Shown here: piece by piece, positions 5,060 to 16,805 of the stretch
Layout: the number at the start of each line of letters is the position of its first letter
How positions within the stretch are numbered: position 1 is the stretch's first letter
NCBI GenBank assembly: GCA_005808665.1
Contig: SYLG01000012.1
Span: 1 to 64,000, forward strand
From: Planctomycetia bacterium
GTDB taxonomy: Bacteria > Planctomycetota > Planctomycetia > Gemmatales > Gemmataceae
Direction: 5' to 3'
DNA: 64,000 bases
Notes under the pieces: generated by a model
Databases searched by the model: none
Told to the model about the DNA's origin: nothing
The model's input: the letters and a program-made list of their open reading frames with translations, nothing else
Made by a program: the position numbers and the translations under genes

Positions 5060-6799
5060 ATGCCGAAAATGGATAGTGCAAACCATCCCATACGAATGAG
5101 CTGGTTTCGGCTTTTTATTTTGACTCCTTTGGCCCGCTTGCGGTTCGTCTTCATCCTTTTTCTTATTGGAATTGCCTTGGCAAAATGGGACACCCTTTTG
5201 GCCCATTGGGAAAAATGGTCCTGGGTAAAGTCTGGGACCGAAGCAGTGGCGGCCGGATTTGAATACTATTGTCCCATGCACCCGACCTTTACCACCGAAA
5301 AAAAGGGTGATAAATGTCCGATATGTTTCATGGGATTGAGCAAACGAAAAAGCGGTGTGGGTGGCGGTGATGTCTTGCCTGCCGGGGTTATCAATCGGGT
5401 CCAACTGACGCCCTATCGGGTAATCCTTGCCGGGGTCAAAACCCTTCCGGTCTCCTTTGTTCCCCTTTTCAAGGAAATCGCCACCGTTGGGACGGTGGAA
5501 TTTGATGAACGGGAACAGAAACATGTTGCGGCACGGGTAAAGGGACGGATTGAAAAGCTCCTGGTTAACCAGACCGGACAAATGGTCAACAAGGGAGATG
5601 AATTGGCCATTCTTTACAGCCCAGACTTGGTCATCACCGTCCAAAACTTGCTGGATGCAAGGCGCTCAAACAACCTGATTTTGGAAAAAAGTTCCAAAGA
5701 GCGATTGGAGTTATGGGGAGTGGGCAAGGAGGAGATCGACAACATCATCCGGACAGGATTGCCTGTAAAAACACTTACAATTCGCTCTCCCATCTCTGGT
5801 CATGTGTTGAAGAAATACCCCAAAGAGGGGCAATATGTCGATGAGGGAAGTCCCCTTTACGATGTGGTAAACCTGGAAAAGATTTGGATTCTTGCCCACA
5901 TATACGAGGACGACCTGGGGTTCTTTCCTGTTCTTCATAAACATGTCGTGGGCAAAAACCCTTTGGAAATTGCATGGGGCGTGAGTGCCACATCCCGTGC
6001 CTATCCGGAGGAGAAATTCAAAGGAATCCTGACCTTTATCTATCCTCATGTCGACCAGGAAAACCGGACCCTTGCCGTCCGCTTTGAGATGGCTAACCCG
6101 GGCAATCGCCTGCGTCCAGGAATGGCCATGCAGGTTCGGCTGGATACCAATGGTTTGGCACTTTTGACATTCAAGGGGCCTGAAGGAAAAACCCTTTTTC
6201 CGTTTCAGGTAAAGGGGGGCAAGATTCTGGCGATTCCCGAGGACAGCGTCATTGATACCGGGTCCCAAAAGGTGGTCTACAAACAGGAAAGCCCAGGCGT
6301 ATTTCAAGGAAATACTGTTGAACTGGGACCCCGGATGAAAATGCCCGATGGGCACTTTGCCTATCCCGTGTACGCAGGCCTCAAGGAAGGGGATGAGGTT
6401 GTTAGCCAAGGGGCTTTTTTAATTGACGCTGAGACCCGCCTTAACCCAAGTATTGGTTCCATTTACTTTGGTAGTACCGGGGCAAAAGAACCGGTTCGAA
6501 ATGTCAGGCCAACCACCCCATCCGATGAAATTGCAACAATCGCCTCCCATTTGGCAAAGTTGTCCCCACTAGACAAAAGCATGGCCCAATCCCAAAAACT
6601 ATGCGTGGTTCAGGAGAAATCCCAACTTGGTTCCATGGGTGTGCCCATCAAACTCCAACTGGAGGGACAAACCGTGTTTGTCTGCTGCGATAGTTGTGTG
6701 GAAACAGCGAAAGGCAATCCGTCCCAAGCCCTCAAACGATTGAAAGTCCTTAAATCGGCTCAATCCAATGGTAAGCCTGGGGAAGGACCTTCTCCATGA
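5060..6799 (+). CDS. cusB: RND efflux periplasmic adaptor (CusB-like) with N-terminal heavy-metal-binding domain and C-terminal Cys-containing domain
   Basis: GGAGGAG just upstream of ATG; HMBD motif YYCPMHPTFTTEKKGDKCPICFMGL; adaptor core FDEREQKHVAARVKGRIEKLLVNQTGQMVNKGDELAILYSPDLV; C-terminal VFVCCDSCVETAKGNP. Overlaps the next gene by ATGA. Confidence 0.88.
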   Translation: MPKMDSANHPIRMSWFRLFILTPLARLRFVFILFLIGIALAKWDTLLAHWEKWSWVKSGTEAVAAGFEYYCPMHPTFTTEKKGDKCPICFMGLSKRKSGVGGGDVLPAGVINRVQLTPYRVILAGVKTLPVSFVPLFKEIATVGTVEFDEREQKHVAARVKGRIEKLLVNQTGQMVNKGDELAILYSPDLVITVQNLLDARRSNNLILEKSSKERLELWGVGKEEIDNIIRTGLPVKTLTIRSPISGHVLKKYPKEGQYVDEGSPLYDVVNLEKIWILAHIYEDDLGFFPVLHKHVVGKNPLEIAWGVSATSRAYPEEKFKGILTFIYPHVDQENRTLAVRFEMANPGNRLRPGMAMQVRLDTNGLALLTFKGPEGKTLFPFQVKGGKILAIPEDSVIDTGSQKVVYKQESPGVFQGNTVELGPRMKMPDGHFAYPVYAGLKEGDEVVSQGAFLIDAETRLNPSIGSIYFGSTGAKEPVRNVRPTTPSDEIATIASHLAKLSPLDKSMAQSQKLCVVQEKSQLGSMGVPIKLQLEGQTVFVCCDSCVETAKGNPSQALKRLKVLKSAQSNGKPGEGPSP

Positions 6800-9700
6800 T
6801 CGAGCGCTGGATTGAGTTTTCCATCCGCAATCGGTTTTTGGTAGTGGTTGCATCCCTGGTCCTTTCCGGATGGGGCATTGTTTGCGTAATCCATACTCCC
6901 ATCGATGCCATTCCTGATCTGGGTGAAAACCAGGTAATCGTCTTTGCCGATTGGCCCGGTAGAAGTTCCCGGGAAATAGAAGACCAGGTTACCTATCCCA
7001 TTTCCCGGAAACTGCAGGGGCTTGCAGGTGTTCGGACCATTCGTTCGTCCTCCGAGTTCAATTTTTCGATGATCACAGTGATCTTCGAGGACCAAGTCAA
7101 TTTTTACTTTGCCAGGCAACGGGTATTGGAAAAATTGGCCGAGTCGGGGGATAAATTGCCCCAAGGAGTGGTCCCCTACCTGGCTCCCGATGCAACCTCC
7201 CTTGGCCAGATTTTTTGGTACACGGTAGAACCCGAACCCAATGCTCCTGTTGATATTTCCCGTCTCTGGGCTTTGAACAAATACCTCATTGCACCCCACT
7301 TGAATGCCACTTCCGGAGTGGCGGAAGTGGCCAGTGTCGGAGGAATGCCCATGGAATATCAGGTGGATATTCAAACGGAAAGGTTAAGGGCCTATGGAGT
7401 GACTTTGGGGGAACTCTATGAGGGCATTTCCAAAAGCAATATGCCCGCAGGCGGAGGCGTCATTCAAAAAAACAATGCAGAATACATCGTCCGTGGTATC
7501 GGCTGGATCAAAGGGAAGGAAAACATTGAAAACACGGTTATCCGCGAAGTCGATGGTATCCCGATTTATGTGAAAAATCTTGCAACAGTCCAGTTGGGAA
7601 CCCGCTTTCGCAGAGGGGTTTTCGAAAAAAACGGATCCGAGGTGGTTGGCGGTGTGGTCCTTATGCGCCATGGCGAAAACCCCATGGCTGTTACCGATCG
7701 GGTCAAGGAGAGGATTCGCGAACTGACGCCTAGTCTGCCACTCGGCGTACGCATTGTTCCCGCTTATGACCGTACCAGACTCATTCAGGGAGCCATCCAC
7801 ACCTTGGCGGAGGTGATGGGACATGAAATGGTCATAGCCGGCTTTGCAATCCTTTTGATTCTTGGCCACATTCGCAGTGTTTTCATCATCTGCGTTACCT
7901 TGCCTTTGTCCGTGCTTTTTTCCTTCACCATGATGTGGGTACTTAGGATATTGGGAATTGTCGACATCCAGGCCAACATCATGTCCCTGGCCGGGATCAC
8001 CATTTCCATTGGAATCCTGGTTGACCAAGCCATTGTCATGGTGGAAAACGCCACCCATCACCTGAAGGCAAAGTTCGGGGACAAGCCCATCCAGGGGGAC
8101 ATCGTCTCGGTAGTATTGCCAGCATGCATTATGGTGGGGCGGCCTGTTTTCTTTTCTGTATTAATCATGCTCCTTTCCTTTATTCCGGTTTTTCTACTCT
8201 CCGGTCGCGAGGGAAAACTATTCCATCCCCTTGCGTTTACGAAAAGTTTTGCCCTTATTGGGACCGCATTATTGTCCGTAACCCTTGTGCCTGCCTTGAT
8301 CCCCATTTTCCTCAAAGGGCGTTTGAAATCCGAGCAGGAAAACTGGATTGTACGCAGTTTCATCGGGATTTACCGCCCGTTCCTTTCATGGTTCCTTCCC
8401 AGACGCAATCTTGTTATGTGGTTATTCGCCGTATTATTGTTGCTTGCCGCGGGGCTCTTTCCCCTTCAGGCGATCCTCGGCATGGGAGCCTCGGAATCGG
8501 CCTGGCGTTTCCTGTTTCTTTCCGTCTTTGCCCTGGTGACCACCATCACCGTCCTGTCCACCCATGGGTGGTTGAATCAGTTTCTCTCTCTTTCGACCCT
8601 AATTTTGGTGGCTTTGTGGTCGTACGGTTTTCCCAAAATTGGGGTCTCCTTCATGCCCGCCCTCGACGAGGGAACCACTTTGGATATGCCGGTTACCGTT
8701 CCTAGGGTTAGTGTCACCCAAGCCATTGATGACCTCAAAGCCAGGGATGCCCTGATCAGGGGATTTCCTGAGGTGGAAAGCGTCGTTGGCAAGGCGGGGC
8801 GGGCGGACACCCCCACCGACCCCGCACCCCTTGACATGGTGGAGACCTTTATCAACTTTCGCCCCAAAGAATTTTGGCCTCGCAGGGTGCTTGCCTATGC
8901 CGACGCCCTTAAACAAACCACCATCACCATGCAAGAATTGGAAAGGGTCGGTTTGATTTCCCCAGGGTGGGATGCGGAAGAACGCTCTTCCCTTTTGAAC
9001 GAGGCAGCCCAAAAAGCTCTCGAACGCCACGATGAAGTGCTGAGAGAATTTGCCTCACTTCGGTTTGTTGAGGCGGAGAGGGACCTTGCCCAAAGGATGA
9101 GTGCGGAATTGGTTCAACGCATTGTAAATCATTGCGCAAATGGGTCCCAATGGCTTGGACCGGATAAAAACCCATCACCGGACCTCCTATCCGAAATGAA
9201 GGCACGATTGCTTCCAGGCATTGGAGTGGCCATGGCGACCCACCTTTCTCCGGGTGAATTGGAGAAACAGGCCCGCCTTTTGGCGGACGCCTTGGCAGAA
9301 AAAAAATGGATAACGGATACACCCTTAGCCTTGCAGGTAACCCCAAACCTGTTGGAAAAGATCAGAGAAAGGATTACGGGAAAGCCGATCGTCCTGGCCG
9401 ACAGGATGGTTGCCAGTTTAACCACCATCCGGGATCAATTTTGGCAGGAGGCCGTTCGCAACCTTGACCAAGAACTTTTTTATCTGGGAACCGGGACCTT
9501 TGTTTGGCAGGTTATCGAGGAATTGCTGGGTGGTTCGAGAGACCTTGGCAGGCAACCGGCAGGAGTTTTGGGACAGGAAATAACCGACTTTCTGGATGGA
9601 ACGCTTGCAGAAAGGTTGGGCAAAAGAGATGCAGAAAGGATTCCTTCACGCTTTGGCGACCTGCGCTCCAGCCTTGAAACCGATTTTCAAAAATGGGTGA

Positions 9701-11085
9701 TCCTTTGGAAAAGGCAAGGGGGGCCAAAAGGAGACCTGGTCGATGATGAAATGGGGAGGGTTTTGCAAATCCCGGGCTGGAGCAATATCTTCACCCAACC
9801 CATCATTAACCGGATTGAAATGCTTTCCACTGGTGTCAGGACGGATGTGGGTATCAAAGTGTTTGGCCCAGACCTTGCCACCATTGACCGCATTTGCAAG
9901 GAAGTGGAAAAAGCGGTAAAGCCTGTTCCGGGGGCAAGGGATGTGGTGGCCGCACCAATCATGGGAAAAGGGTATCTGGAAATTGAAATCGATAGGGAAA
10001 GGGCGGCCCGGTTTGGAGTCACCATCGAGGATGCCCAACTGGCCATTGAGGCCGCCATTGGTGGGCGGGAGGTCACCCAAACCGTCGAAAAACGGGAGCG
10101 GTTTCCGGTGCGCATACGCTATTCCCGTGTGGAAAGGGAGGATGAGGATGTTGTCCGGAGGCTCCTTGTTACTGGTTCCCAAGCCATCAATATGGAAAAG
10201 GATGCGGACACAGACAATAGGGTTGTCCCAAACGAAAAAAACCATCGAACCGGGTCGATTCATTTATCCGGGGGTAGAAAACTGGTCCCCCTGACCGCAT
10301 TTGCAGAAATCAGGTTGACCGAGGGCCCGGCCATGATCAAAAGTGAAAATGGCCAAATGATGAATGCGGTAACACTCAATGTTCGTGGAAGGGATATGGT
10401 TGGGTTTATTGAAGAGGCCAGGAGGATTGTAGAACACAAAGTCACCCTTCCGGAAGGGGTCCACCTCGAATGGAGCGGCGAATTTGAACATCAGGTACGA
10501 GCGGCAAGGACACTTTTGGTCGCCTTTCCAGTCGTTATATTAGTGATCTTTATTCTCCTTTATTTAACCTACAAGGATCTGATGGATTCCATGTTGATCA
10601 TGCTGGCATTGCCTGAAGCTTTGGCTGGCGGGGCTTTCTTCCTCTATTTTTTCCCGAAAATCCAGCATGGTTGGGACACCCCCCCCCATGACTTTAGTGT
10701 TGCCGTTTGGGTTGGGTTCATCGCCTGCTTTGGCATGGCGGCGGAGACGGGAATCATCATGATGGTTTACCTCCGCGAAGCAATCGACAAACGGGGTGGG
10801 CTCGAAAAAATCAAGTCCCTCGGGGAACTGAGGGAGGCCATCCTGGAGGGAGCCGTCCACAGATTGAGGCCAAAATTATTGACCGAGGGTGTGGCCATCC
10901 TGGCCATTTTCCCCATGGTGTTCGCCCAAGGGGTCGGGGCAGAGGTGCTTGCCCCTATGGCCCTTCCGGTGCTTGGTGGCTTGTTGATCTCGGATGAAGT
11001 GGTTGACCTTTTTTTGCCGGTTCGGTTTTACTGGGTCCGCCGGGCAAGGTGGTTAAAGCTTCATCCCGAAAAAGCACAAGGTTAA
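6796..11085 (+). CDS. cusA: Heavy-metal efflux RND transporter, CusA/CzcA family (enlarged, 1429 aa)
   Basis: MIERWIEFSIRNRFLVV..., IDAIPDLGENQVIV, EIEDQVTYPISRKLQGLAGVRTIRS, TM4 GISIGILVDQAIVMVEN, VSFMPALDEGTTLDMPVTVPRVS, NRIEMLSTGVRTDVGIKVFG. Longer than typical ~1050-aa homologues. Confidence 0.92.
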   Translation: MIERWIEFSIRNRFLVVVASLVLSGWGIVCVIHTPIDAIPDLGENQVIVFADWPGRSSREIEDQVTYPISRKLQGLAGVRTIRSSSEFNFSMITVIFEDQVNFYFARQRVLEKLAESGDKLPQGVVPYLAPDATSLGQIFWYTVEPEPNAPVDISRLWALNKYLIAPHLNATSGVAEVASVGGMPMEYQVDIQTERLRAYGVTLGELYEGISKSNMPAGGGVIQKNNAEYIVRGIGWIKGKENIENTVIREVDGIPIYVKNLATVQLGTRFRRGVFEKNGSEVVGGVVLMRHGENPMAVTDRVKERIRELTPSLPLGVRIVPAYDRTRLIQGAIHTLAEVMGHEMVIAGFAILLILGHIRSVFIICVTLPLSVLFSFTMMWVLRILGIVDIQANIMSLAGITISIGILVDQAIVMVENATHHLKAKFGDKPIQGDIVSVVLPACIMVGRPVFFSVLIMLLSFIPVFLLSGREGKLFHPLAFTKSFALIGTALLSVTLVPALIPIFLKGRLKSEQENWIVRSFIGIYRPFLSWFLPRRNLVMWLFAVLLLLAAGLFPLQAILGMGASESAWRFLFLSVFALVTTITVLSTHGWLNQFLSLSTLILVALWSYGFPKIGVSFMPALDEGTTLDMPVTVPRVSVTQAIDDLKARDALIRGFPEVESVVGKAGRADTPTDPAPLDMVETFINFRPKEFWPRRVLAYADALKQTTITMQELERVGLISPGWDAEERSSLLNEAAQKALERHDEVLREFASLRFVEAERDLAQRMSAELVQRIVNHCANGSQWLGPDKNPSPDLLSEMKARLLPGIGVAMATHLSPGELEKQARLLADALAEKKWITDTPLALQVTPNLLEKIRERITGKPIVLADRMVASLTTIRDQFWQEAVRNLDQELFYLGTGTFVWQVIEELLGGSRDLGRQPAGVLGQEITDFLDGTLAERLGKRDAERIPSRFGDLRSSLETDFQKWVILWKRQGGPKGDLVDDEMGRVLQIPGWSNIFTQPIINRIEMLSTGVRTDVGIKVFGPDLATIDRICKEVEKAVKPVPGARDVVAAPIMGKGYLEIEIDRERAARFGVTIEDAQLAIEAAIGGREVTQTVEKRERFPVRIRYSRVEREDEDVVRRLLVTGSQAINMEKDADTDNRVVPNEKNHRTGSIHLSGGRKLVPLTAFAEIRLTEGPAMIKSENGQMMNAVTLNVRGRDMVGFIEEARRIVEHKVTLPEGVHLEWSGEFEHQVRAARTLLVAFPVVILVIFILLYLTYKDLMDSMLIMLALPEALAGGAFFLYFFPKIQHGWDTPPHDFSVAVWVGFIACFGMAAETGIIMMVYLREAIDKRGGLEKIKSLGELREAILEGAVHRLRPKLLTEGVAILAIFPMVFAQGVGAEVLAPMALPVLGGLLISDEVVDLFLPVRFYWVRRARWLKLHPEKAQG

Positions 11086-11139: not shown

Positions 11140-12585
11140 CTAGGGGTGGGGATTGCTTGAAACTGAATCCATCCTTGTCCCACCGGTTGCCCGGTCAAGG
11201 GCAGCCTTTCGACGGAAGGCCTCGGCCTGGGCCTGATAATAGCGATCCTGGGTCATGGCCTGCTCCTTTTGAGCAGCAACCAAGGTCAAAAAAGGCACTT
11301 TACCTGTGATGTAGGAATCCTGGGCTTCACGGGCGTTGGCCTGTGTCGCTTTCAGAGTGGTATTCTGGAACAGTTCCAGGATCTGGCTGCTTTCCCGGAC
11401 TTGTTCCAGGGATTCCTGGACTTGAAAATGGATTTGGTCCACCAATTGGTCGTATTCCGCCTTGTGCTGTGCCAACCTCGATTGGGCCTCCTTAAGGGCC
11501 GCATACCTACGCGCCAAGCGGGCTGGTATATTCAACCGAACCCCCAATTGAAACTGCATTTGTTTGTCCATCCCCTGCCAAAAACTGTCATAGGAAGCCA
11601 TCGCTTCGTAGTCCGGGGAAAACTCCCTTTTTGCCAATTGAACTGCGGACTCATCGGCCCGGACGATTTCGGCCAAACTGAGGAGGTCAGGACGATTGGC
11701 CCGAGCCTCCTGGCGCAATTCTTCCCCATTTCGTTTTTCCGGTTGTAAGGAAATATCTTTTACAGAGGGGGGAATCGGTAAATCGGGTTCCAAATGCATC
11801 AGGGTATTGATCCGGGCCTTGGCAACATTTTGCATCCGCAAAAGAGTGATCGCTTTTTCTTTTTGCAGGCCTAGCTCCACATCCGCCTGAAGAATATCCT
11901 GCTGGGGAGTTTGTCCATTGCGGTAGCGAGTCTCCGCGTTTTGGCGAAATTCCACCAGGATTTTCCGGGTATTCTCGCTTACCTCAAGGGCCCTTTGCAC
12001 AAAATAGAGATCGTAAAAAGCATTGGAGGCGTTTTCCTCCAGGAGCAGGCGCAAACTTCCCAAATCGTTTTCGGATGCCTTTGCCTGGGCTTGGGCCATT
12101 TCCCCCCGTAGTTGGCGTTTGCCCCGGCCGGGCACCTTTTGCGATAATTCCAATCGCATGGCAAAATCCACCTGATTGGACCCAATCGTACCAGGGGCGA
12201 ACCACCCCCCCACGCTTGGGTCCTCAAGGGTAATGGCCTGAGGAAATTTGGCTTGGGCTGCCTGAAGGGCTTTACCCATTGCCACCAACGATTGGTTGCG
12301 TTGGAGCACTTCGGTCACGACATCGGTTGCCTGAATGCTCACCAGATTTGCAAAGGGCACTGTTCCCTGGGGAATGATCTCATTTGCCACCGGAGGCAAT
12401 TCCCCTGTTGGGTTGGGAGGGGCTACCAGGACCTTTGGGGTTTCTCCTTGATCATCGGAATGGTTGGTTGGCAAGGAGTGAATCGAATGATTGGGGTGGT
12501 TGGTAAAGGGAATTGAAACACACCCGGTCAAACCCCAAACAGGGGTAATCCAAAGCCCCAAAAGGAGTGGCTTGCCTCGTTTCAT
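11140..12585 (-). CDS. TolC-family outer-membrane efflux protein (CusC-like)
   Basis: Lipoprotein-like N-terminus MKRGKPLLLGLWITPVWGLTGCVS; coiled-coil OEP repeats (LRLELSQKVPGRGKRQLRGEMAQAQAKASENDL; RYRNGQTPQQDILQADVELGLQKEKAITL). Convergent with the cusBA genes. Confidence 0.88.
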   Translation of the reverse strand: MKRGKPLLLGLWITPVWGLTGCVSIPFTNHPNHSIHSLPTNHSDDQGETPKVLVAPPNPTGELPPVANEIIPQGTVPFANLVSIQATDVVTEVLQRNQSLVAMGKALQAAQAKFPQAITLEDPSVGGWFAPGTIGSNQVDFAMRLELSQKVPGRGKRQLRGEMAQAQAKASENDLGSLRLLLEENASNAFYDLYFVQRALEVSENTRKILVEFRQNAETRYRNGQTPQQDILQADVELGLQKEKAITLLRMQNVAKARINTLMHLEPDLPIPPSVKDISLQPEKRNGEELRQEARANRPDLLSLAEIVRADESAVQLAKREFSPDYEAMASYDSFWQGMDKQMQFQLGVRLNIPARLARRYAALKEAQSRLAQHKAEYDQLVDQIHFQVQESLEQVRESSQILELFQNTTLKATQANAREAQDSYITGKVPFLTLVAAQKEQAMTQDRYYQAQAEAFRRKAALDRATGGTRMDSVSSNPHP

Positions 12586-13521: not shown

Positions 13522-13802
13522 GCCTTGGTCCCATGGAGATTAGGATGTATCCAACCTTGGGAATAGGTTAGGGGCCAAGGACAGGATGTCCCTGAAAAGG
13601 TTCCATTTGGGTTCTTTTGATGGGAAAAAAAATCGTCTCCAACGATCTTATCGACTGGGGTGTTGACAAATTGGTGGGGAATCCCGGTTCACCAACAAAA
13701 AAACGGTTGAATTGGGACTCTTTACACAGCAAGATAGACGAGAATGGAAAATTCTTTCTCAATTGCTGGCCATTTCAGGTCGGCAAACAAGAGGGCAGGC
13801 CT

Positions 13803-16800
13803 ATGTCTGCAAGCGTTCCGGGTGTTTGGGGTATTGACTTGGGTCAGGCGGGCTTAAAGGCCCTCCGCCTCCAAAGGGAAGGCGATACCGTTGTTGCCAC
13901 GGCGTTCGATTTGGTGGAGCACGCCAAACTTTTGAACCAGCCCGATGCGGATAGGGAAGCACTTATCCGTGAGGCGTTGGAAAAATTTCTTTCGAGAAAC
14001 TCCCTCAAGGGGGACCTGGTTTGTATTTCCGTGCCAGGCCAATCGGGCCTGTTTCGAACGGTCAAGCTGCCCCCGGTTGCTGAAAACAAGATACCTGACA
14101 TTGTCAAATTCGAAGCCAAACAACAAATTCCGTTTTCCCTCGAAGAGGTCGTTTGGGATTTCCAGAAGATCGGTGCGGGCATGCTGATCGACGGGATGGC
14201 GATCGATACCGAAATCGGCCTTTTTGCCATGAAACGGGACATTATTTTTCGGGAATTAGGCTATTTCAAGGATGTTGGGGTCGAGGTTCATCAGGTTCAG
14301 ATGAACTTCATGGCCCTATGCAACTTTTCCGTGTTTGATCAACTTGGTTTGGTGCCTCCCAAAGCGGGTGAAGAAGGGGACCTTCCCTCCGGGAAATGCG
14401 TTGCGGTTCTGGAAATTGGTTCAGAACTGACCAATCTGGTAATAAGTGATGGCAACAAGATCATCCTCCAGCGAACCATCAATGTAGCAGGTAACAATTT
14501 TACCAAGGCCCTGTCCAAAGACCTGAAATTAACATTTGCCAAGGCGGAACATCTCAAGCGTAATGCCACCAAGGCTCTCCCCAAGGAGGGACCTGACCTT
14601 AAAGCGATCCTTACCGCATTAAGGCCGGTTTTCAACGACCTACAAAACGAAATCCAAAGATCGTTGACCTATTTCCAAAACGCTCACCGTAATGCCGAAA
14701 TCACCCGTATCATTGGCCTTGGCAACGCCTTTCACCTTCCGGGTTTGCAGCGATTTCTCCAGGAAAAACTCCAACTCGAAATCCAAATCCCCAAATCCTT
14801 CCCCAAGCTGGGTGGGTCCGTCATTGGCGATGCCGCCTTCAAGGATAACATCCTGACTTTTGCCGTGGCTTATGGTTTGGCAATTCAAGGGCTCAAGTTG
14901 GCCAAAATCCAAACGAACCTGTTGCCTCCCGAAATCCGGATGGAAAGACTCATTCGTGCGAAGAAACCATGGGCCGCACTTACGGCCGCGAGTTTGCTCC
15001 TGGGCATTTCCACCTGCGGCTTCAACTCCTATATGCAAGCCAAACCCTACATCGATGGGGATGTTATCAAACAGGTCAAAGACTCCAAATCGGTCAAGGA
15101 TTTGGTGGACGGTGGAAAACGGAACTTTGATGCCCTGCTGGAAAAAACAAGTCAGGAAAAAGTCGCGGTCGAAACCATTGTTGCCGGACAGCAGGAAAGA
15201 GCCAATTGGTTGGAAATGATGGCGTTTCTACAGGATGCCATTCCCCGGCCTGACGGCTCAAACATATTTGCCGAGAAGGCAAAGCCCTACTTTATGGGAG
15301 ATTTGGACCCCACCACTAAAAAATATGTGGGCATTCCCGACGAATTCCGCAAACGCCGAACCCTTACCGGGAAACGGGCCTATGAACTCTATGCGTCAAA
15401 ACTTTCTGCGGGGGTGGAACAGGGCGAGATCGACTCGACTGCCTCTTCGGGTATTGATGATATGGTTCAGGTCAGCGTGACTTCGGTGGATTGCCGGTTT
15501 TTTGACAACCTGAACACCGGGTTTTGGACCACCGCAAAAAAGAAGATTGTAGACTCCAACCTGGGGAAAACCGTGGTCCGTCCCCTGAATTGCTGGACGA
15601 CCGCTCCGGATGGCAAAGGTTGGGTGGTCGAACTTAGAGGGTACACTTTCCATTGGAACAGTTCCAAATTTTTGACGGAAGCAGTCCTTGAGAATATGGT
15701 TTCCGTTGGCATGCGAAAGGCAGCATCCCAGGCGGCATCGCTTAATCCTCCTCCGGGGGGAGAGGCTCCCTTGGGTGAGGGGGCCGGGGCCGGACCGCCA
15801 GATATGGGACCCGTAATCAACCGCATTAGCCATCTAACCCTTTTCCGCTATTATCGCCATGCCAACATGAACCGGAACGGGTTCTTCCTTTTGGACAATT
15901 CCTATTTGGGAGATTTGGCCAAAGGTAGCGGCGGAGGGGCAAGCAAAGGCGGAATGGGAGGCATGGGCGGAATGCCTATGCCAGGTGCCGAAGGGGGTTC
16001 TGGTCTGAGTGGCGGAGCCGGTGTCGGCGCTGGATCCGAACGGTCCAGTTGGGTCAGTCTTTTAGGGGCTCGAGGTTCGGGTGCCGGCATGGGCGGCCCC
16101 AAAGCGGAGGGGGGCCCAGGTATGGCGGGGCCAGGGGGGATGAGTCGGGGCGGAATGATGTCGCCCGGCGGCGACGGGGGATCCTCTGCTCCCGCTGCTC
16201 CTGCAGGTGGTGCTGAACCCGGTGCCGGGGCCGAGGAAGAGGGCTCTGGCGACGGGGGAGATTCCACCGGGGAAATCATTCAAAAGGGTGCTCGGAAACG
16301 AACAGAATTTGTGATCTTTTTTGTGTGGAAGGAACCCACCCCATCGGATGCCCTTCGAGGCAGCATGGCAGGACCCGCTGCTGATGGTACAGCCCCGGCC
16401 CCAGATGCCCCGGCCGAGGGTGCGGTGGAGGGTGCCGCTTCGGGACCGAGCCTTTTTAGCAAAAAAGGGAGCCCGGCGGAACCTAGAACCGTGGAAAAAG
16501 CCAAAGCCCGCAAAGAGCGCCCCATTGGCTTACCCACCGGATCACCCCCTGCCCCGGAAATCAAAGTTTTAGCCACCCCCAAACCAAAAACTACCGATAG
16601 CGAAAACCCCATGGGTCAAGGGGAACCTGAGACAAAGGCCGGGAATAACCCCGCTCCTAATTCGCCCCTTCCGGCGGTGGGGCCAAAGCCTGCTCCACCG
16701 GGGCCTGCCCCTTCCACCCCGGGAACCGCACCTGGAGCAACTGCTCCACCGGATACCGGAAAACCGAACGATTCCAAACAACCAGAAAACCCCAAAAACA

Positions 16801-16805
16801 AGTAA
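13803..16805 (+). CDS. pilM: PilM-family type IV pilus assembly ATPase fused to a PilN-like membrane/coiled-coil region, with Gly/Pro/Ala-rich C-terminal segments
   Basis: PilM-type actin fold: VWGIDLGQAGLKALRL, ISVPGQSGLFRTVKLPPV, IVKFEAKQQIPFSLEEVVWDFQ, CVAVLEIGSELTNLVISDGNKIILQRTINVAGNNFTKAL. Then one TM (PWAALTAASLLLGISTCGF) and coiled coil, then low-complexity GGMGGMGGMPMPG and GAGAEEEGSGD. Confidence 0.82.
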   Translation: MSASVPGVWGIDLGQAGLKALRLQREGDTVVATAFDLVEHAKLLNQPDADREALIREALEKFLSRNSLKGDLVCISVPGQSGLFRTVKLPPVAENKIPDIVKFEAKQQIPFSLEEVVWDFQKIGAGMLIDGMAIDTEIGLFAMKRDIIFRELGYFKDVGVEVHQVQMNFMALCNFSVFDQLGLVPPKAGEEGDLPSGKCVAVLEIGSELTNLVISDGNKIILQRTINVAGNNFTKALSKDLKLTFAKAEHLKRNATKALPKEGPDLKAILTALRPVFNDLQNEIQRSLTYFQNAHRNAEITRIIGLGNAFHLPGLQRFLQEKLQLEIQIPKSFPKLGGSVIGDAAFKDNILTFAVAYGLAIQGLKLAKIQTNLLPPEIRMERLIRAKKPWAALTAASLLLGISTCGFNSYMQAKPYIDGDVIKQVKDSKSVKDLVDGGKRNFDALLEKTSQEKVAVETIVAGQQERANWLEMMAFLQDAIPRPDGSNIFAEKAKPYFMGDLDPTTKKYVGIPDEFRKRRTLTGKRAYELYASKLSAGVEQGEIDSTASSGIDDMVQVSVTSVDCRFFDNLNTGFWTTAKKKIVDSNLGKTVVRPLNCWTTAPDGKGWVVELRGYTFHWNSSKFLTEAVLENMVSVGMRKAASQAASLNPPPGGEAPLGEGAGAGPPDMGPVINRISHLTLFRYYRHANMNRNGFFLLDNSYLGDLAKGSGGGASKGGMGGMGGMPMPGAEGGSGLSGGAGVGAGSERSSWVSLLGARGSGAGMGGPKAEGGPGMAGPGGMSRGGMMSPGGDGGSSAPAAPAGGAEPGAGAEEEGSGDGGDSTGEIIQKGARKRTEFVIFFVWKEPTPSDALRGSMAGPAADGTAPAPDAPAEGAVEGAASGPSLFSKKGSPAEPRTVEKAKARKERPIGLPTGSPPAPEIKVLATPKPKTTDSENPMGQGEPETKAGNNPAPNSPLPAVGPKPAPPGPAPSTPGTAPGATAPPDTGKPNDSKQPENPKNK

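Follow-up and report, generated by a model that had tools for sequence, protein, structure and literature searches.

A predicted all-alpha domain inserted into the PC1 subdomain of a CusA-like metal efflux pump of planctomycetes

The gene for a CusA-like metal efflux pump in a planctomycete contig encodes an additional domain of about 280 residues within subdomain PC1 of the pump's porter module. The contig (SYLG01000012.1, assembly GCA_005808665.1) comes from Planctomycetia bacterium of the Gemmataceae, and the stretch analysed here, the 64,000 nucleotides from position 1 to 64,000 of its forward strand, is called the window throughout. We regard the anatomy, an extra domain in a pump of the CusA type, as practically certain. 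The best overall explanation, to which we assign a probability of about 0.45, is a CusA-type metal/proton antiporter with an accessory domain at its substrate cleft on which the adaptor docks.

The pump gene (6796..11085; this gene and all features within it are on the plus strand) is a single uninterrupted ORF of 1429 amino acids, so that the frame is intact, as the preliminary description of the window had said. The protein belongs to the CusA/CzcA family, with a TIGR00914 score of 927.4 bits against a curated cut-off of 701.45; it also matches PF00873, and CusA structures were its top matches both by sequence and by fold. The gene overlaps by 4 nt with that of a 579-residue CusB-like adaptor (5060..6799, plus strand; PF16576 and PF19335) with an N-terminal HMBD motif and a C-terminal CCxxC module, and it is convergent with a gene for a TolC/CusC-like outer-membrane factor (11140..12585, minus strand; PF02321). 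E. coli CusA (PDB 3k07) and SilA, which have the RND fold in common with the window pump, are likewise encoded together with an adaptor of the CusB type and a TolC-like factor. Elsewhere in the window, an ORF of 1062 residues (13617-16805) has, by eye, a PilM-type actin-like look in its N-terminal half and ends in a long Gly/Ala/Pro-rich tail.

Alignments and an AlphaFold model of the domain alone place the inserted all-alpha domain at 8884..9729 (residues 697-978). When the pump was compared with E. coli CusA structures by phmmer, it aligned in four pieces with a query gap from residue 695 to 979, opposite which just four CusA residues were skipped (construct 644 to 649). In an alignment of 80 sequences, CusA W636 corresponds to W694 of the window pump and CusA residue 651 to R988; the interval between these positions is 293 residues long compared with 14 in CusA, a net gain of about 279 residues in PC1, where CusA and SilA have a short turn. 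TDPAP and NRIEML are spaced 331 residues apart in the window pump versus about 52 in SilA. An insertion of ~280 residues at 8881-9730, mostly charged and helical, had been proposed from the sequence. The coordinates were right, the stretch encoding residues 696 to about 978, and both the predicted structure and the alignment of members agree with the charged, helical character. No paper on such an insertion was found in the literature library that was searched.

We modelled the insert alone with AlphaFold (AF2) from 44 relatives and ran DSSP on the model, in which residue i is pump residue 690+i. The model has a pLDDT of 91.3 and a pTM of 0.83; the insert is also the best-predicted region of a 1200-residue pump model, in which the pTM of the whole pump is just 0.55. 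Nine main helices are predicted (701-717, 727-781, 795-802, 809-815, 819-835, 852-861, 867-916, 924-940 and 951-967), two of them 50-55 residues long, and the whole domain stands on a short two-stranded stalk. The chain enters through stalk strand 1 (8881..8892; residues 696-699, RRVL, from DSSP) and leaves through stalk strand 2 of the model (9703..9711; residues 970-972). Long helix A (8974..9138; residues 727-781) carries the conserved pattern R..DE..R...R..E (R744, D746, E747, R750, R756 and E759), and long helix B (9394..9543; residues 867-916) the family pattern W..RV...NWELFD. The short-helix portion between them (9178..9378; residues 795-861) falls within a stretch that is absent from two gemmataceous pumps (L079 and L080), and because these lack the middle of the domain, short helices included, this portion appears to be dispensable. 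In two further members (L061 and L067), part of the long-helix-A region is present in an additional copy. By this prediction the insert would fold independently of the pump; with a pLDDT of 91 and conserved positions, it is neither predicted to be disordered nor unconserved.

Searches with the insert against Pfam, NCBIfam and PDB sequences gave nothing significant. Foldseek found no match in the PDB or among viral folds: the best E-values were 0.32 and 0.19, with a TM below 0.2 for both top matches (about 0.14 for the best PDB fold, E 0.32). The insert is therefore an undescribed domain, and its predicted fold is possibly new with respect to solved and viral structures. A likeness of the first helices to MarR-like winged helices (E about 0.005-0.1, in few members) was not supported by the predicted fold, and we took it as chance. 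The single candidate for a stand-alone copy of the domain, a frame of 528 amino acids (G403, L183:5230-6840), is a broken pump remnant. In this remnant, from a relative of the same family, the N-terminal part runs straight into the insert and the C-terminal half is gone.

The insert was recovered at 50 loci when 84,980 species genomes were scanned, all from MAGs titled as planctomycete or just as bacterium, one of them Candidatus Kuenenia, which is also a planctomycete. The scan was keyed on the conserved PGW-type flank with the insert as query, and its apparent absence outside the phylum rests on this one pattern scan. The insert lies within a pump frame at 50 of 50 loci, a figure that is no evidence against easy loss since the insert was the query, and it is mostly 240-290 residues long, with extremes of 175 and 384. 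Within the phylum, a single-sequence search found it in 9 of 294 planctomycete genomes (its own genome counted), a profile of nine sequences in 21 of 392 sampled, and a profile of 44 sequences in 13 of 41 close relatives. The recurrence of the same domain at 50 independent loci and in these 21 genomes rules out an artefact of assembly or a frameshift. Presence is patchy even in the genus, where one 90%-complete genome is without the insert and another has it. No insert was found on plasmids; the best plasmid match to the pump, a CusA/CzcA pump of Pelobacter propionicus (NC_008607, L157; 43% identity), has the same triad and relay and no insert, only the usual short loop (WRPGMKKADIVAELD).

Other CusA-type pumps, those of the same phylum included, mostly have 3-5 residues at the insertion site, which disposes of the concern that most homologues might have the same length, and most sampled planctomycete CusA relatives are without the insert. 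We built a tree of 80 pumps with FastTree from core columns only, the insert columns having been removed. The 26 insert-bearing pumps tested fell on one side of a branch inside the CusA/SilA-like group with a support of 100, on a scale that is optimistic in FastTree. Presence of the insert is a single change on this tree, and the clade has no insert-free member sampled. Comparison of planctomycete homologues, as suggested in the preliminary description, thus found the insert to be specific to one clade, and because the insert-bearing pumps form one clade on the core-only tree, it was likely gained once.

Planctomycete CusA-type pumps outside this clade (L126, L134 and L140-L156) have 15-110 residues at this position of PC1, with chance-level scores against the insert profile. 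At -2.1 bits, the 110-residue segment of L134 gives no support for homology with the insert. Unrelated segments of 80-110 residues occur at this site in L134, L141, L149, L155 and L156. The site in PC1 would appear from this to be an insertion hot spot in planctomycetes.

The insert follows strand beta3 of PC1 and the equivalent of CusA Trp636 and precedes helix alpha2, and it splits the strand with the M623/E625 equivalents from the helix with residue 651. PC1 and PC2 form the substrate entry cleft, the porter helices are on the external side, and PC1 is a continuous fold in known RND pumps (PMC8277102). This continuity, which is common among RND pumps but is not required by the family model, is interrupted here by a domain of about 280 residues. 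For CusA, the switch between the binding and extrusion states has been measured by how far N651 lies from R705 (PMC8092243). As the insert adjoins the helix that holds CusA residue 651, the domain should emerge near the opening of the cleft, and we infer from its position in the sequence, the whole-pump model (pTM 0.55) being too poor for placement, that it sits beside the entrance of the cleft formed by PC1 and PC2.

The functional roles of CusA residues, those of the methionine relay included, were taken from PMC8092243. All equivalents of the CusA-type periplasmic Cu(I) site, M573, M623 and M672 with E625, are kept in 26 of 26 insert-bearing pumps. In the window pump these are M631 (8686..8688; M573 of the Cu(I) triad), M681 and E683 (8836..8844), and M1009 (9820..9822), the last of which follows the insert. 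The proton relay D405/E939/K984, which like the Cu(I) site is common to CusA, SilA and the window pump, corresponds to D410, E1317 and K1360 and is identical in all 26. The D671-K678 latch is represented by E or D (N in one pump) and by R.

The transmembrane methionine relay is thought to carry metal from the cytosol. Among its pairs M410-M501, M403-M486, M391-M1009 and M271-M755 (CusA numbering), just the equivalents of M391 and M410 are kept in the window pump; those of M403, M486, M501, M1009, M271 and M755 are L, I, F or E. We file the pump as CusA-like, not CusA, because most methionine relay positions are lost. The natural reading would be a soft-metal pump loaded chiefly from the periplasm.

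The window pump also differs from CusA and SilA in two respects that the preliminary description had missed. One is a hydrophobic stretch added between TM6 and TM7 (8452..8589; residues about 553-598), recognised from alignments, hydropathy and the model. Hydropathy and the model indicate that TM7 is preceded by one or two hydrophobic helices more than in the HME-RND plan of 12 TM helices, and the stretch is probably an added transmembrane hairpin. It is missing in CusA, SilA and some insert-bearing pumps (L038-L041 and L078) and is still larger in others (L043, L057 and L065), and so is not strictly tied to the insert. The other difference from CusA and SilA, residues 1126-1161 (10171-10278) in the C-terminal docking region, is a short low-complexity length variation that differs across the family.

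The rate of evolution of the insert is several times that of the pump core. Between the window pump and its closest relative (L076), dN was 0.184 and dS 1.05 in the insert, a dN/dS of about 0.18, compared with a dN of 0.036 and a dS of 0.86 in the N-terminal half and a dN/dS of about 0.02-0.04 in the core. Mean identity to the window pump is 28% in the insert and 71% in the core. By these substitution rates the insert is under purifying yet relaxed selection. Conserved positions include W694, P695, R697, D703, D746, R750, R756, E759, E893, F964 and W971, and there are invariant W, P, R and D positions. No conserved Met, His or Cys was found inside the domain among 44 members, in which Cys makes up 0.2%, His 1.5% and Met 1.5% of its residues. 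Fast evolution, the losable short-helix portion and the range in length from 175 to 384 residues suggest that any strict function is confined to part of the insert.

Where a locus includes enough upstream sequence, the gene immediately before that of the pump mostly encodes a CusB homologue. All 40 of the 40 full-length adaptors have an HMBD-like motif, and each also has 1-3 CCxxC and/or further HMBD-like motifs; in the window adaptor the CCxxC motif (TRASH/YHS-like) is at 6683-6697, residues 542-546. Related adaptors hold up to three CCxxC modules, an unusual load of metal-binding modules. Open frames of 2103-2117 amino acids that looked like pump-adaptor fusions (L039 and L080) have the adaptor in another, overlapping frame and are not fusions.

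We compared adaptor divergence with that of individual pump segments after removing the signal shared with the remaining core. Among the 30 shallower sequences, with pairs that are non-independent, co-divergence with the adaptor was 0.46 for the insert, 0.41 for the DN-containing and 0.49 for the DC-containing segment, compared with -0.10 to 0.09 for the PN, TM, PC1 and PC2 segments. The contrast was weaker in the full set (insert 0.40, TM2-6 0.35), and we take the insert-adaptor co-divergence as a hint. The preliminary description had assigned the extra residues to the second periplasmic loop, where they could form a domain near the adaptor or funnel. The loop placement stands, and contact with the adaptor is plausible, with the weak co-divergence as indirect support; nearness to the funnel was not borne out, as the domain lies in PC1 beside residues of the cleft and not in the docking subdomain DC.

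In the explanation that we favour, PC1 would have acquired, in a single event and probably in a planctomycete ancestor, a stand-alone all-alpha periplasmic domain of about 270 residues between beta3 and alpha2. The short two-stranded stalk of this domain would keep it on the outside of PC1, at the opening of the PC1/PC2 cleft where periplasmic metal enters, and the partner adaptor would dock on its surface and be guided by it. The domain may thereby keep the HMBD and other metal modules of the adaptor close to the cleft and aid the hand-over of metal to the Met triad, a role made likelier by adaptors that carry HMBD and further metal-binding modules. This specific role in adaptor docking and metal hand-off is a tentative assignment.

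The two helices of 50-55 residues could also be read as a long arm that steadies the pump trimer or anchors it to the planctomycete envelope, through peptidoglycan, membrane or another partner, with no part in metal transfer. The domain is found solely in genomes titled planctomycete or bacterium, and its conserved residues are charged or aromatic and not metal ligands, both of which speak for this reading; however, its co-divergence with the adaptor in the shallower set matches that of the DN- and DC-containing segments, and since most sampled planctomycete CusA relatives have no insert, the envelope itself does not require the domain. We consider this unlikely. A domain that itself binds metal or acts as a metallochaperone to load the cleft, in effect a built-in CusF, would suit an insert situated between the sequence parts that supply the Met triad and beside the cleft helix, but across 44 members no Met, His or Cys is conserved and the metal motifs are in the adaptor instead, which makes this reading very improbable.

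The domain might also be a tolerated decoration, a foldable segment taken up at the PC1 hot spot and kept for solubility or by drift with little function. Its far faster evolution than the core, its variable length with the middle lost in some members, and the unrelated segments, up to 110 residues long, that further planctomycete pumps have at this site are all in keeping with this. Yet the dN/dS of about 0.18, the invariant W, P, R and D positions, the high-confidence fold and a clade without an insert-free member sampled, which argues against easy loss, make it unlikely in our judgement.

The domain is of interest for CusA-type pumps, in which the route of metal from adaptor or chaperone to the cleft is not fully settled. 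It is possible, with the odds somewhat against it, that the insert defines a new periplasmic family with a new all-alpha fold, a built-in arm for adaptor docking and hand-off; such an accessory domain is not known from RND pumps. The insert also shows that an RND porter module can accommodate a domain of this size where its moving cleft ends. With a domain beside the cleft, adaptors rich in metal-binding modules and most of the methionine relay gone, this clade may offer a natural test of periplasmic loading alone.
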